Shown here piece after piece: positions 5,079-55,590 of a DNA stretch of 64,000 nt. A model generated the notes under the pieces. That model saw only the letters and a program-made list of their open reading frames with translations. It did no database searches and had not been told where the DNA came from. Source of the stretch: Pseudomonas pergaminensis (GTDB lineage: Bacteria > Pseudomonadota > Gammaproteobacteria > Pseudomonadales > Pseudomonadaceae); contig NZ_CP078013.2 in NCBI RefSeq assembly GCF_024112395.2, positions 3,596,001 to 3,660,000 of the forward strand. The letters are read 5' to 3'. Every line of letters starts with the position of its first letter. The first letter of the stretch is position 1. Position numbers and translations under genes: made by a program.

Positions 5079-5471
5079 ATGACTCGCGACGAACTCGCTG
5101 CCTTTTACCAAGGCTATATCGACTGCCTGAACCGTCAGGATTGGGAGCACTTGGGTGACTTCGTGCACCCGGACGTGACCTACAACGGCGAAGTCGTCGG
5201 CCTCGCCGGCTACCGTGCGATGCTGCAGCGGGATTTTCGCGAGATACCGGACTTGGTGTTCTGCATCCAGTTGCTGGTCGCCGACCCGCCGACCGTGGCC
5301 AGTCGCCTGAACTTCAAGGTCACGCCCAGGGGCGAGTTCTTCGGGTTGCCGATCAATGGACGCCAGGTGACGTTCGACGAAAATGTGTTCTATGAGGTGG
5401 TCGACGGCACATTCGCCCACGTATGGTCGGTGATCGACAAAGCGGCCATCGCGCAGCAACTGGGCGGCTAA
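5079..5471 (+). CDS. SnoaL-like ester cyclase family protein
   Basis: 130 residues, starting three bases after the LysE stop, so probably translated from the same transcript. It has the SnoaL / nuclear transport factor 2 fold pattern: an N-terminal helix (YIDCLNRQDWEHLGDFVHPDVTYNG), the middle MLQRDFREIPDLVFCIQLLVADPPTVASRL and FDENVFYEVVDGTFAHVWSVID. The family covers polyketide cyclases and many uncharacterised small-molecule-binding proteins. No specific reaction can be assigned. Confidence 0.7.
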   Translation: MTRDELAAFYQGYIDCLNRQDWEHLGDFVHPDVTYNGEVVGLAGYRAMLQRDFREIPDLVFCIQLLVADPPTVASRLNFKVTPRGEFFGLPINGRQVTFDENVFYEVVDGTFAHVWSVIDKAAIAQQLGG

Positions 5472-5505
5472 ACTCCACAGGGCCATTCTCACGTGGAGAC
5501 CGATC

Positions 5506-14751: not shown

Positions 14752-16317
14752 ATGCGCAATAACCAGCCCATAACACAGCGTGAGATTTCCCTCGCGCCTT
14801 CGCAAAAACTCATCTCCGCCACGGATGTCCGAGGTGTCATCACTTACTGCAATGACGCCTTTGTCGAGATCAGCGGCTTTGAACGCGCCGACCTGATCGG
14901 CGCGCCGCAGAACATCGTGCGCCATCCGGATGTGCCACCCGCCGTGTTTGCGCACATGTGGGGTGCACTCAAGCAAGGCCTGCCCTGGATGGGCATCGTC
15001 AAGAACCGCTCGAAAAACGGCGACCATTATTGGGTCAACGCCTATGTCACGCCGATCTTCGACGGCAGCAAGGTGGTGGGTTTCGAATCGGTGTGGGTCA
15101 AACCCACTGCCGATGAGATCCGCCGTGCCCAGGCCCTTTACCGCCGCATCAGCCAGGGTAAGCCGGGCGTGCCACGCCAGGATGCCTGGCTGCCTGCCGC
15201 GATCAGTTGCGTGCCGTATGTGGCCACCGGATTGGCCGGCAGCCTCGCCGGCCTGTTCCTCAGTGCACCGCTGGCGATTGCGGTGGCCGTCGTTGTCGCG
15301 GTGCCAGTGGGCGTGCTCTGCTCGCGCGTGCGCCAAGGCAGCACACTGCGCCTGTTGCAGGGGGTGGAACCCTCGACTTCGGACGCCTTGATCGCACAAA
15401 TGTACAGCGACGCCAGCGGGCCCCAGGCACGCTTGGAAACCGCGTTCCTCAGCCAAAACGCGCGCCTCAAGACCTGCCTGACGCGTTTACAGGACAGTGC
15501 CGAACAATTGAGCGCCCTGGCCGGGCAATCCGACCAGTTGGCCACCGCCAGCTCCAAGGGCCTGGACCGCCAGCGCGTCGAAACCGAACAGGTCTCGGCC
15601 GCCGTCAACCAGATGGCCGCCACCACCCAGGAAGTCGCCAGCCACGTCCAGCGCACCGCCGACGCCACCCAGCAAGCCAATGTGCTGACCGGGCGCGGCC
15701 GTGAAGTGGCACGGGACACCCGTGAGGCCATCGAACGTTTGTCCAGTGTGGTCAGCGAAACCGGCGCGACCGTAGCGCAACTGGCACGGGACAGCGACGA
15801 AATCGGCAGCGTGGTGGATGTGATCAAGGGCATTGCCGACCAGACCAACCTGCTGGCGCTCAACGCCGCCATCGAAGCCGCGCGTGCGGGTGAGCAAGGC
15901 CGTGGTTTTGCCGTGGTCGCCGACGAAGTTCGCCAGTTGGCCCAGCGTACCTCTCAGTCCACCACCCAGATCCACGCGCTGATTACCCAGTTGCAGGCAT
16001 CTTCAAACAACGCGGTGCAAAGCATGGAACACGGCCAGCGCCAGGCCCAGGAAGGCGTGGCCTGGGTACTCGAGGCCGACCAGGCGCTGGTGGGTATCAG
16101 CGAGGCCGTGTCCCACATCACCGACATGACCACCCAGATCGCCGCCGCCACCGAAGAACAGAGCGCGGTCGCCGAGGAGATCAGCCGCAACATCACCACC
16201 ATCGCCGAACTGGCCGACCAGACCTCGATACAAGCCCATCAATCCACGGACCTGAGCAAGGAACTGACAAACACCGCGTCCACCCAATATGCGTTGGTCG
16301 AGCGCTTCAATCGCTGA
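14752..16317 (+). CDS. Aer-like PAS-containing methyl-accepting chemotaxis protein
   Basis: 521 residues. The N-terminal PAS domain (about 10-120: [49 protein letters not shown]) is the cytoplasmic energy/redox sensor type found in Aer. Two adjacent hydrophobic segments at about 145-190 form the membrane anchor. The C-terminal signalling domain contains the tip [35 protein letters not shown]. There is no periplasmic domain. The predicted role is aerotaxis or energy taxis through CheA/CheW. Confidence 0.9.
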
Positions 16318-28099: not shown

Positions 28100-28115
28100 T
28101 GGCGCGTGACTTGCT
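28100..28115 (+). promoter_or_regulatory. Sigma-54 promoter of the nitrate reductase gene
   Basis: TGGCGCGTGACTTGCT matches TGGCACG-N4-TTGCW with one change in the -24 block. The GG to GC spacing is correct. The predicted start near 28126 is about seven bases before hairpin P1. Confidence 0.75.
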
Positions 28116-28132
28116 AGTAACACGTCAACCAA

Positions 28133-28173
28133 GCAGTCAACGCTGACTGCCCTCTCACGACAAAGGCGCCGTG
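28133..28173 (+). promoter_or_regulatory. ANTAR-type antitermination hairpins, nasA leader
   Basis: P1 is GCAGTC-AACGCT-GACTGC (28133-28150), a perfect 6-bp stem with a hexaloop. P2 is CACGAC-AAAGGC-GCCGTG (28156-28173), a hexaloop stem with one A-C mismatch. Both loops have A1 and G4. The loop and 3' arm of P2 are the start of the terminator's 5' arm, so the two structures compete, as in NasR/NasT-controlled leaders. Confidence 0.75.
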
Positions 28174-32353: not shown

Positions 32354-34303
32354 ATGGTCGTCTCGATGAAAATAAAAAATAAGCTGGTACTGGCATTTGT
32401 CTCTGTAGCGTTTATCCCGGTGAGCTTGGTGGCCGTGATTTCGGTCATGAACACCCGGACCCAGGCGGTGGATCAATTCATCGATGGCAGCACCCGGGAA
32501 ATCCGACAGATCGATGGCAACATCCGCCAGTTCTTCGACGGTACGCTGCAAAACGTCGATCAAATGGCCACCGATCCTGTATACACATCGCTGAACACCC
32601 TGAAAAACTACCAGCCCGCCGACGCGGCCAGCCAGCCGATGCCGGCAGAGGCGCAAGCCGTGATCGACCGCTTCGCGCGTTTTGGCGCCACACACCCGGC
32701 GGCGGCGATCCTGTCCATCGGCCTGGAAGACGGCACCTACGCCAAATGGCCGGACGACCCGCAACTGGCCAAATACGACCCCCGCACCCGCCCCTGGTAC
32801 AAGGCGGCCATGGCCAGCCCCGGCAAGACCGTGCGCACGCCGGCTTACTACTACGACAAAGATGACGTGGCGCTGGTGGGCACTGCGCGAGCATTGTTGG
32901 ACAACGGCAAGGCCAAGGGTGTGTTCGTGGTCAGCGTGTCGTTGAAGAATCTCACCGAGCTGGTCAAGAGCATCAAGCTGGGCGAAAGCGGCTACGTGAT
33001 GTTGATCGAAGACGGTGTGGTGCTGGTGGACCCGCGCGATGCGGCCCACAGTTTCAAGCCGCTCAAGGACTTGGGCGCACCCTATGCGCATTTGGCCGAC
33101 ACGCCGCAAGGCTCCACCGAGGTGGTGATCGACGGCGTGCGCTACATGGCCAACGTGTGGACCTCCCCCGGCCTCGGCTGGCGCTACATCGGGTTGATCG
33201 AACACCGTGAAGTCATGGCCGAAGCCACGCGCATGACCTACCTCACCGCAATCATCGTCGGCGTGCTGGTGCTGATCTTCGGCCTGATCGCGGCGGCGTT
33301 TTCCAAGGTCATCGTCAAGCCCATCGGCCAGGTCAGCACCGGCCTGCAGTCCATCGCCCAGGGCGAAGGCGACTTGCGCCACGAGCTGCAGGTACAGGGC
33401 AAGGATGAAACCGCCGAATTGGCCGGCTGGTTCAACAAGTTTCTCGCGGCGATCCGCCAACTGATCCAGCATATCGGCGCGGCCTCGGCCAATTTGCACA
33501 ACGCCTCCAAGGTCAACAGCGAGGTGGCGCACAACATGAACGAGGCGGCCGGCCGCCAGCGAGAGGCGGTTGAATTGGTCTCCACCGCGTTCAATGAAAT
33601 GGTGGCCACCGCCAACGAAGTCGCGCGTTCATGCAGCGGTGCAGCCGAGTCCGCCGAGAACGGGCACCGTCGCGTGGCCGAGGGCAAGCAGCAGATCGAA
33701 GTCACCACCGACAACGTCAACCGCTTGGGGCGCCGCCTTACCGAGTCGTCCCAGGCCATGGTCGAACTGGAAGCCGGCAGCCGCAGCATCAACCAGATCC
33801 TTGGCACCATCCGCGCGATTGCCGAACAGACCAACCTCTTGGCACTCAACGCCGCCATCGAGGCCGCCCGCGCCGGTGACCAGGGCCGTGGCTTCGCGGT
33901 GGTGGCCGATGAAGTGCGTGCCCTGGCCAAGCGCACGTCCGACTCCACCGGTGAGATCGAGCAACTGCTCGGCACCCTGGAAAACAAGACCCAGGAAGTC
34001 ACCCAGAAGATGGGCAGTTGCCTGGACTTGTCGCGGGCCAGCGTATCGTCCATCGAAAGCGCGCGGGACAGCTTTGAAGGCATCCAGACGTCGGTCAACG
34101 AAATCCGCGACCAGAACCTGCAGATCTCCGCCGCCGCCGAGGAACAACACAGCGTGGCCGAGGAGATCAACCGGCATATCCAGCAGATCTACGACGAGGC
34201 GCGGCTGGTGGAAAGCCTGGCCAACTCGGCGCAGGACGACTCTGGGCGGTTGTCGAATTTGTCGGATGAGCTAAATGGCTTGGTGGGGCGATTCAAGTCC
34301 TGA
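32354..34303 (+). CDS. Methyl-accepting chemotaxis protein with dCache sensor domain
   Basis: 649 residues; an alternative ATG at 32366 gives the more typical start [17 protein letters not shown] first membrane helix (about 10-32) and second (about 295-317) flank a periplasmic double-Cache domain with the motif [34 protein letters not shown] that usually binds amino acids or small acids. HAMP follows, then the signalling domain with [35 protein letters not shown]. It follows the nitrate reductase gene by about 140 bp. The ligand is unknown. Confidence 0.9.
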
Positions 34304-34902: not shown

Positions 34903-35323
34903 CACGATGCGAAGCGAGCCGCTCTTGCTCTTGCTCTTGCTCTTGCTCTTGCTCTTGATCTTGATCTTAGGCGCCCCGTCAAACACGCTGGCCGGAATTC
35001 GACAGGGATTTGGGGGGTAAACCGGCAGGGATGCCGGTTTAGCCGCCCCGCGCCATGGATGGCGCGTGGCGGCGGCCCCCCAAATACCTGTCGGATTACG
35101 GGCACACCGAGCCTAGGCGAGGTGCCGAGTGTTGGGGCAAGAGCCTTTTGCTTACTTTTGGGCTTTTCAAAAGTGAGCCGCCGTAAGGGCGGAACCCATA
35201 GCAGCCGTTACCTAAATAACGGATATGTACCCGATCAGATCCAACATCCAGGTCGGCTGTCAGGCCGCCTTCGCGAGCAAGCCCGCTCCCACATTTGGAT
35301 CGCGGGGCAACAGTCAGAGCGTG
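34903..35323. repeat. Structured interspersed element, copy 1
   Basis: About 420 bp, nearly identical to 55160-55590. In order: a CTTGCT/CTTGAT hexanucleotide tract (34920-34970); an 18-bp arm CGACAGGGATTTGGGGGG (35000-35017) whose complement is at 35076-35093; nested between them the hairpins TAAACCGGCA/TGCCGGTTTA and CGCGCCAT/ATGGCGCG; then a GGCAC/GTGCC hairpin around GCCTAGGC, GCTTACTTTTG/CAAAAGTGAGC (35150-35178) and CCGCC/GGCGG (35179-35193). It ends in a REP-like unit. Open frames through it differ by amino-acid-changing substitutions between copies and are not believed to be genes. I do not know a name for the family. Confidence 0.75.
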
Positions 35324-35660
35324 GTCGGCTGTTAGGCCGTCTTCGCAGGCAAGCCAGCTCCCACAGTTTTGAATCGCGGGGCAACAGTCAGAGCGTGGTC
35401 GGCTGTTAGGCCGTCTTCGCGGGCAAGCCAGCTCCCACAGTTTTGGATCGCGGGGCAACAGTCAGAGCGTGGTCGGCTGTTAGGTCGCCATCGCTGGCAA
35501 GCCAGCTCCTACAGTTAGATCGCGGGGTGATAGTTAGATTGTGGTCGGCTGTCAGGCCGTCTTCGCAGGCGAGCCAGCTCCCACATTTAGATCTCGGGGT
35601 GACAGTTAGATTGTGGTCGGCTGTCAGGCCGCCATCGCAGGCAAGCCAGCGCCTACAGAG
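35252..35660. repeat. Tandem array of about 5.5 REP-containing units
   Basis: The sequence GTCGGCTGTYAGG recurs at 35252, 35324, 35398, 35472, 35544 and 35616, giving a period of 72-74 bp. Each unit carries a REP-type core (TTCGCAGGCAAGCCAGCTCC or variants). The last unit runs into the 3' end of the nucleotidyltransferase gene. There are no unique spacers, so this is not a CRISPR array. Confidence 0.85.
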
Positions 35661-55159: not shown

Positions 55160-55590
55160 ACGATGCGAAGCGAGCCGCTCTTGATCTTGATCTTGATCTT
55201 GATCTGGCTTTTGATCTCGCTTTTGATCTTAGGCGCCCCATCAAACACGCTGGCCGGAATTCGACAGGGATTTGGGGGGTAAACCGGCAGGGATGCCGGT
55301 TTAGCCGCCCCGCGCCATGGATGGCGCGTGGCGGCGGCCCCCCAAATACCTGTCGGATTACGGGCACACCGAGCCTAGGCGAGGTGCCGAGTGTTGGGGC
55401 AAGAGCCCTTTGCTTACTTTGGGGCTTTTCCAAAGTGAGCCGCCGTAAGGGCGGAACCAATAGAAGCCTTTACCTAAATAACGGATATGTACCCGATCAG
55501 ATCCAACATCCAGGTCGGCTGTCAGGCCGCCTTCGCAGGCAAGCCAGCTCCCACATTTGGATTGCGGGGTGACAGTTAGATTGTGGTCGT
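55160..55590. repeat. Structured interspersed element, copy 2
   Basis: Second copy of the element at 34903. The hexanucleotide tract is CTTGAT-based rather than CTTGCT. The 18-bp arms are at 55262-55279 and 55338-55355 with the same two nested hairpins. The hairpin at 55412-55440 has a changed base pair: ACTTTGG/CCAAAGT where copy 1 has ACTTTTG/CAAAAGT. One REP-like unit (from 55514) closes the element, where copy 1 has a tandem array. Confidence 0.75.

Follow-up and report, generated by a model that had tools for sequence, protein, structure and literature searches.

What kind of element is the structured repeat that occurs twice in the 64,000-nucleotide stretch of Pseudomonas pergaminensis DNA analysed here (the window), and what may its fold be good for? 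The preliminary description took the stretch 34903–35323 as one element of about 400 bp with a nearly identical second copy. The two copies are real, and a repeat search of the window pairs them over 300 nt with 95% identity, yet the extent had to be redrawn. The conserved unit is an arm of approximately 265 nt (TAGGCGCCCC...GGATATGTACC) that spans 34968–35231 in copy 1 and 55230–55493 in copy 2, both on the + strand, with boundaries placed by an alignment of 43 genomic copies and by alignment A1 (see below) and with both sequences read. The 3' part of 34903–35323 already enters an array of its own, built of REP-like units repeated directly every 72–74 bp (35251–35660, +; family D1 of the repeat search), which lies 3' of the arm and outside the fold. 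On the 5' side the arm is preceded by a run of hexamers, (CTTGCT/CTTGAT)n at 34926–34968 (+), which on reading differs in number among copies. The 3' end of the arm, AACGGATATGTACC (35218–35231, +), is conserved in sequence across copies and forms the outer terminus of head-to-head pairs.

The window copies are two of 43 that a two-hairpin pattern finds in the host genome (G000; 6,609,381 bases in a single contig), 23 in forward and 20 in reverse orientation. A 39-nt core is identical in all 43, and the pattern read backwards as a control gave zero matches. A pattern for one of the hairpins described below, helix B, finds three more arms in this genome, so that 43 is the number of core copies and not of every arm. 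The exact 39-base core is present in at least 120 named public stretches, all with Pseudomonas titles. Most of the 43 copies carry variable hexamer repeats 5' and either unique DNA or REP-like 72–74 bp repeats 3'; sequence similar to the 35251–35660 array follows many of the solo copies in the host genome. A second, diverged arm (type II) sits head-to-head in eight of the 43 copies, for an overall length of 747–805 bp, and the other 35 are solo.

This repeat is a dispersed, protein-less element with arms that occur solo, head-to-head or tail-to-tail. Within 120 named loci of the P. fluorescens group, 21 pairs of neighbouring arms no more than 3 kb apart comprise 19 head-to-head, zero tail-to-tail and two tandem cases; among 218 loci with arms, pairs less than 700 bp apart are head-to-head in 43 cases, tail-to-tail in six and tandem in four. 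Inspected by eye, the matches listed include at least 20 head-to-head and at least seven tail-to-tail pairs, the latter in genomes G057, G145 and G102. One such pair each from G057 and G145 was read directly, and G116 also has some. These tail-to-tail pairs in four genomes rule out one fixed two-arm unit as a general rule. At L330, L331, L358 and L342 (from G116, G057 and G145), the hexamer repeats lie outside the tail-to-tail arms, which inverts the order seen in elements of the P. fluorescens type.

The preliminary description recognised no described family. The repeat is not unnamed, however, because its core passes the cut-off of the Rfam family TwoAYGGAY (RF01731): copy 1 matches at 34984–35110 and copy 2 at 55246–55372 (both +), each with 61.7 bits against a gathering score of 43. 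A paper of 2014 still described TwoAYGGAY as an RNA family with no known function (PMC4333381). A published table rates it as probably RNA, probably not cis-regulatory and probably not a riboswitch (PMC2864571), unlike the Rfam entry, which gives its type as Cis-reg. The arm shares with this family a long stem and two adjacent GGA hairpins. It differs in that the core is part of a 265-nt arm with further covarying helices, in that it is mobile and occurs in tens of copies, and in its first loop, which reads AGGGAT and not AYGGAY. Our repeat is probably also R200, a 320-bp repeat tabulated with 47 copies in P. fluorescens SBW25 and with no structure in that table (Silby 2009, PMC2718517), a match made by size and by copy number (43 core copies here) only. 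For P. putida, the stem-loop clusters in a survey of 2008 number 75 (PMC2267715), and our element may be one of them. New here is that TwoAYGGAY cores are arms of a dispersed mobile element; we found no paper that ties the family to a mobile repeat in literature judged mostly by titles and abstract openings, which is no proof of absence.

Among 149 sampled Pseudomonas genomes, 83 have TwoAYGGAY matches above the cut-off and 95 have matches with E ≤0.001, at least 87 of these 95 with two or more; with up to 17 candidates scored per genome, these counts are lower bounds. None of 14 control genomes gave a match. In 26 Pseudomonas genomes that were examined in detail, there are up to 64 matches per genome and at least 20 in 10 of the 26, some of them below the cut-off. 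A survey of 321 genomes of the class gave matches in 20 including the host, 14 of them above the cut-off, and at least 11 of the other 19 have three or more matches with at most eight candidates scored per genome. Elements with a TwoAYGGAY core are also present in some non-Pseudomonas genera. Close pairs in the class survey are head-to-head in G438 (two) and G327 (one) and tandem in G259 (one). By eye, copies in G438 and G410 keep the architecture of the arm, with stems that are unrelated in sequence and a different terminus (GTTTCGCACGC...GCGTGCGAAAC).

We then consider the structure itself. Selection for structure had been proposed from a single pair in one hairpin, and direct reading of both copies confirms this double change: the hairpin arms GCTTACTTTTG/CAAAAGTGAGC at 35150–35160/35168–35178 in copy 1 read GCTTACTTTGG/CCAAAGTGAGC in copy 2, with T-A replaced by G-C. 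Far more support comes from alignment A1, which contains 74 arms (43 from the host, eight partner arms, plus a further 23 that represent 19 more Pseudomonas genomes; 20 genomes). Its rows are full-length arms with a score >90 that reach both ends; incomplete arms and L059, a duplicate, were excluded. The collection of further copies that the preliminary description had advised revealed changes on both sides in 34 of 82 tested pairs, with 96.8% of cells paired, in statistics that count related copies many times. Pairing falls to 35–46% when the partners are slid by 1–3 columns, a control that flatters the structure because the latter was derived partly from the same sequences. None of 500 shuffles was as high on any of five measures. 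Run on A1 without the proposed structure, RNAalifold returns most of P1 as well as P2, P3, P4, B and P6, together with an additional closing stem. Selection on a single-strand structure is thus well supported.

The closing stem P0 of the RNAalifold consensus (34973–35138, +) consists of GCCCC 34973–34977/GGGGC 35134–35138 and CAC 34984–34986/GTG 35129–35131; its pairs are nearly invariant and therefore uninformative either way. The long stem P1 (helix 1; 34992–35017 with 35076–35101, 34992–35101, +) encloses both GGA hairpins and has double changes at 14 of 24 pairs, with 96.3% of cells paired. The enclosed hairpins are P2 (35018–35041, +; 10 pairs, three double-changed), with the loop AGGGAT of the RsmA/CsrA type A-N-GGA-N, and P3 (35042–35073, +; 13 pairs, four double-changed), with the loop ATGGAT. 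Helix P4 (helix 4; 35102–35125, +; seven pairs, two double-changed, 99.6% paired) contains an inner GAGC...GCGA with tandem G-A by inspection. Further 3' are helix A (helices 5 and 6; AAGAGCC 35139–35145 with GGCTTTT 35161–35167, 35139–35167, +), in which six of seven pairs are double-changed and about 95% of cells pair; helix B, the hairpin of the preliminary description (helix 7; 35150–35160 with 35168–35178, 35150–35178, +; 10 pairs tested, three double-changed, 99.9% paired); and hairpin P6, CCGCC-GTAAG-GGCGG (helix 8; 35178–35192, +; five pairs, two double-changed). Two pairs of helix B are C-G or G-C (39/34) and T-A, G-C or C-G (50/22/1) in 73 distinct rows. Every helix tested contains double changes except the last, P7 at the 3' end (helix 9), which was dropped with 84% pairing and zero double changes.

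Helix A interlocks with helix B. Since the two share no bases, are ordered A5'-B5'-A3'-B3' and leave zero linker between A3' and B3', they are incompatible when complete. Helix A covaries in A1 and is weak in other lineages: in 34 distinct arms selected through helix B, it scores 15.0, barely above the control, against a mean of 13.5 (sd 0.55) for mismatched partners, with 14.9 as the best of 200 draws, and in this set it is not general beyond P. fluorescens-type arms. The geometry together with the weak score in the wider arm set rules out helix A as a universal pseudoknot. In P. fluorescens-type arms, the interlocked geometry suggests that the 3' part of the RNA probably alternates between helix A and helix B. 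A neighbouring change at 35146, unpaired in helix B, had been counted among the single changes. It is not independent: 25 copies combine T at this position with the T-A pair and 18 combine C with the G-C pair, a linkage without exception in 43 of 43, and all three positions that distinguish copy 2 from copy 1 in the hairpin region are fully linked in the 43 copies (T/T/A 25, C/G/C 18). In the alternative helix 35139–35145/35161–35167, a C at 35146 would add a C-G pair with 35160; copy 1 has U-G.

All 74 arms have the sequence A-(N)-GGA-(T/C) in the loops of both hairpins enclosed by P1, with variation only in N and in the last base, and the P3 loop is A-N-GGAT in all 74. Measured against the literal AYGGAY, loop 2 is ATGGAT in 65 and ACGGAT in one of the 74 arms, and loop 1 is AGGGAT in 54 and ATGGAT in three. 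Because Rfam matches are partly chosen for GGA, we also collected arms with helix B and P6 as the sole criteria. This GGA-blind set holds 40 arms from 33 loci, three loci from the host and 30 from 23 of 30 genomes that already match TwoAYGGAY. With loop content ignored, 34 of the 40 arms contain two hairpins 25–31 nt apart and six have no hairpin pair. GGA is found in both loops of 33 of these 34 arms if 4 nt on either side are counted and of 32 if 1 nt is counted, as compared to 0 of 34 on the reverse strand; the two failures at 1 nt are a loop with AGTA and a mis-picked hairpin of L367. In a GGA-filtered list, 30 of 42 loci have stems of often unrelated sequence with loops 27–29 nt apart. 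Some non-Pseudomonas copies (L316 and L317 of G438) have, by eye, lost GGA from one hairpin.

According to a review (PMC7652899), RsmE/CsrA recognises a hairpin whose hexaloop reads ANGGAN, and one dimer bridges sites 10–63 nt apart, best >18. Most of the GGA-blind arms carry loops of this kind at such a dimer-bridgeable spacing. The same review describes SELEX ligands with mostly ≤4 contiguous pairs; the stems of the arm hairpins are longer and GC-rich, which counts against a reading in terms of RsmA/E. The host genome contains three CsrA-family genes, and CsrA binding of TwoAYGGAY was proposed from motif matches in 2014 (PMC4333381). A mobile repeat with RsmA/CsrA-type hairpins suggests an element linked to bacterial RNA control.

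How might such an element work? In a model that we regard as evenly poised between right and wrong, the arm is a non-coding mobile sequence with its + strand kept in a TwoAYGGAY-type fold, and the transcribed arm captures a dimer of RsmA/E. The + strand of each arm would be selected to form the long stem, the two A-N-GGA-N hairpins, P4 and the covarying hairpin region. The arm would be transcribed from the element or by read-through, and one RsmA/RsmE (CsrA) dimer would bridge the two loops of the arm RNA. The element may then protect and regulate the transcript that carries the arm, or tens of copies may together add decoy sites for RsmA/E. Transcription of the arm, binding of RsmA/E and function are all predicted here from sequence, and we know of no arm transcript. 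Further points that weigh against the model are the six GGA-blind arms with no hairpin pair, the choice of the sampled genomes among those already matching TwoAYGGAY, the GGA losses in G438, the weakness of helix A in other lineages, the inconstant order of the arms, the lack of any transposase in what we found and the good folding of the minus strand. The arms resemble sponge RNAs of the CsrB/RsmY/RsmZ type in their repeated A-N-GGA hairpin loops, but they have only two sites and are mobile and multicopy; the CsrB/RsmX/Y/Z families are absent from the three gathering-score Rfam matches of the window. A more far-reaching idea, which we hold with considerable doubt, is that the elements parasitise or rewire Csr/Rsm. 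Insertion would plant a dimer site for RsmA/E, spread would depend on binding, and copy number would tune the amount of free RsmA/E.

The + strand folds with –135.8 kcal/mol (z –7.3 vs shuffles) and the minus strand with –124.3 kcal/mol (z –6.7); both fold well, so energy alone cannot pick the strand. A U-G pair in helix B is invariant in 74 of 74 arms. The variable pairs of A1, without P7 and the loop-closing pair of P2, contain 151 G-U cells versus 21 A-C cells, over 15 and nine pairs, with 105 of the 151 from just two pairs. The RsmA-type loops and the excess of G-U over A-C favour RNA, or at least one defined strand.

Dispersal means that the DNA of the element does move, and the strand bias would also suit single-stranded DNA. 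Recognition of single-stranded DNA hairpins occurs in IS200/IS605- or RAYT-type systems. It is possible, if on balance rather unlikely, that the fold forms in such DNA, with hairpins that are read by a transposase or recombinase in movement and with GGA loops as protein-recognition bases unrelated to RsmA. Mobility itself, which this explanation builds on, is well supported. At site L048, G000 and G017 carry a two-arm element and G031 has a piece of one arm. The element is missing from G004, G030 and G032, and also from G016, with a flank that is less alike. In the empty sites, the 24–34 bp that separate the matched flanks are diverged. The element at the window copy-2 site is found in none of six relatives, with no clean junction, and that at L023 is present in G017 and in none of six others. 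A clean empty site with a duplication was not found at L048, the window copy-2 site or L023. In G052, one IS-interrupted two-arm element occurs at two unrelated sites (stretches of 1,664 nt and 327 nt with 98.5% and 93.6% identity, respectively, and about 100 middle bases in one copy only). On the left the similarity ends with the terminus; on the right it runs about ten C/A-rich bases past it. This double occurrence may also stem from segmental duplication by another route.

Insertion-site duplications, which the preliminary description had thought worth a search, were not found with 4 nt or more in any of 25 flank pairs; 22 had none and three had 3 nt. This lack would suit movement through single-stranded DNA. 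On the other hand, the loops and their spacing closely match the published RsmE/CsrA target, and no gene for an enzyme of the required kind was found with the element. Arm pairs 1.1–2.3 kb apart are present in G052, G125 and G129. Six of the seven long versions examined contain IS-like genes of at least four kinds, assigned by eye on the opening residues, with none common to all, and L372 has a 140-aa ORF. By eye, we take the IS of L368 and L370, which interrupts an arm, to be one kind, that of L373 and L374 another, and those of L369 and L371 to be others. Because gene content varied with no gene in common, the long versions look like secondary insertions and were rejected as an autonomous parent; no transposase of the element was found in the seven. 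In L368 and L370 (G052) and in L373 and L374 (G129), the IS lies inside the element, each at two places.

Compared with MITEs and REPINs, the arms are similarly short, gene-less and dispersed, with inverted termini in head-to-head pairs. These terminal inverted repeats of the MITE type (GTACATATCC...GGATATGTAC) are a feature of head-to-head pairs only, the comparison being inapplicable to solo and tail-to-tail arms. In contrast to both, we found no target-site duplication in the flank pairs and no parent transposase in the seven long versions, and the conserved fold is much longer. Matches in plasmid and phage sequences amount to one record each. The phage record MT121968.1 (11,903 bases) contains, at 5303–5479, a 93.8% identical counterpart of the query's first 176 bases; this could be host DNA in the assembly. 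Outward flanks of the arms are C-rich and G-poor (C 0.41 and G 0.12 over the first 20 nt of 97 distinct REP-free ends, by a crude motif test). Microsatellites of this composition (CCAAC, CCCAT and ACC runs) stand directly outside the GTAC end at, for example, L161, L374 and L056, and at L025, L091 and L161 the outer microsatellites differ in length at apparently the same sites. The flanks on the two sides of the two-arm elements L085 and L181 are near-inverted copies for about 20 nt, as if template-switched.

Another explanation assigns no role to RsmA. The arms may be terminators or insulators, with a structured spacer that is tolerated or maintained where genes converge, which we consider improbable. 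According to a crude ORF caller, the 43 copies of the host genome lie between convergent genes in 23 cases, between co-directional genes in sense in 13 and in antisense in six, and between divergent genes in one. A larger set of 124 solo arms has 61 convergent, 30 sense, 28 antisense and five divergent settings, and the convergent share exceeds that of arm-free gene pairs (98 of 599) by the same crude caller. Repeats of P. fluorescens were described with a tail-repeat-tail bias (Silby 2009, PMC2718517). Between co-directional genes, the solo arms favour neither orientation (sense in 30 and antisense in 28 of 124), a point against capture of RsmA/E by transcribed arms. Two-arm elements are mostly co-directional, however, which argues against a spacer between convergent genes: oriented by the best arm, 30 of them gave 16 sense, three antisense, six convergent and five divergent settings. 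The 28 elements of type I plus type II, four without flank, gave 17 sense, one antisense, five convergent and one divergent when oriented by type I, and 11, one, four and one after merging of same sites. The antisense call, L161, may be an error of the caller because its flanks resemble those of L025, which was called sense. Terminator function also leaves the near-invariant GGA loops and their paired spacing unexplained.

Finally, a scenario without structural selection, in which template switching perfects imperfect palindromes and gene conversion spreads the changes, is already disfavoured and very improbable: the copies are very similar, paired arms are inverted repeats and some two-arm copies have palindromic flanks, but the U-G pair of helix B in 74 of 74 arms and a recurring C-U mismatch in P3 (by eye) would be corrected away, G-U cells outnumber A-C, and unrelated stems retain the same loops and spacing.

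Csr/Rsm is a switch that controls secondary metabolism and biocontrol in these bacteria. R200-like repeats appear as bare entries in a table; joining them with TwoAYGGAY indicates that, in at least part of this family, the conserved fold belongs to a mobile element. The capture of RsmA/E by transcribed arms would make each match in the 10 of 26 detailed genomes with at least 20 matches a candidate dimer site, and the repeat offers a direct test of a role for transposable elements in spreading or altering the binding sites of Csr/Rsm. Our guess is that studies of RsmA targets masked such sites as repeats.

Two further features of the window lie apart from the element. A 141-nt direct repeat with 78% identity occurs at 15832–15972 and 33818–33958, and the Rfam family narK RNA (RF03032) matches at 28101–28172 (+) with 54.2 bits against a cut-off of 43.2.
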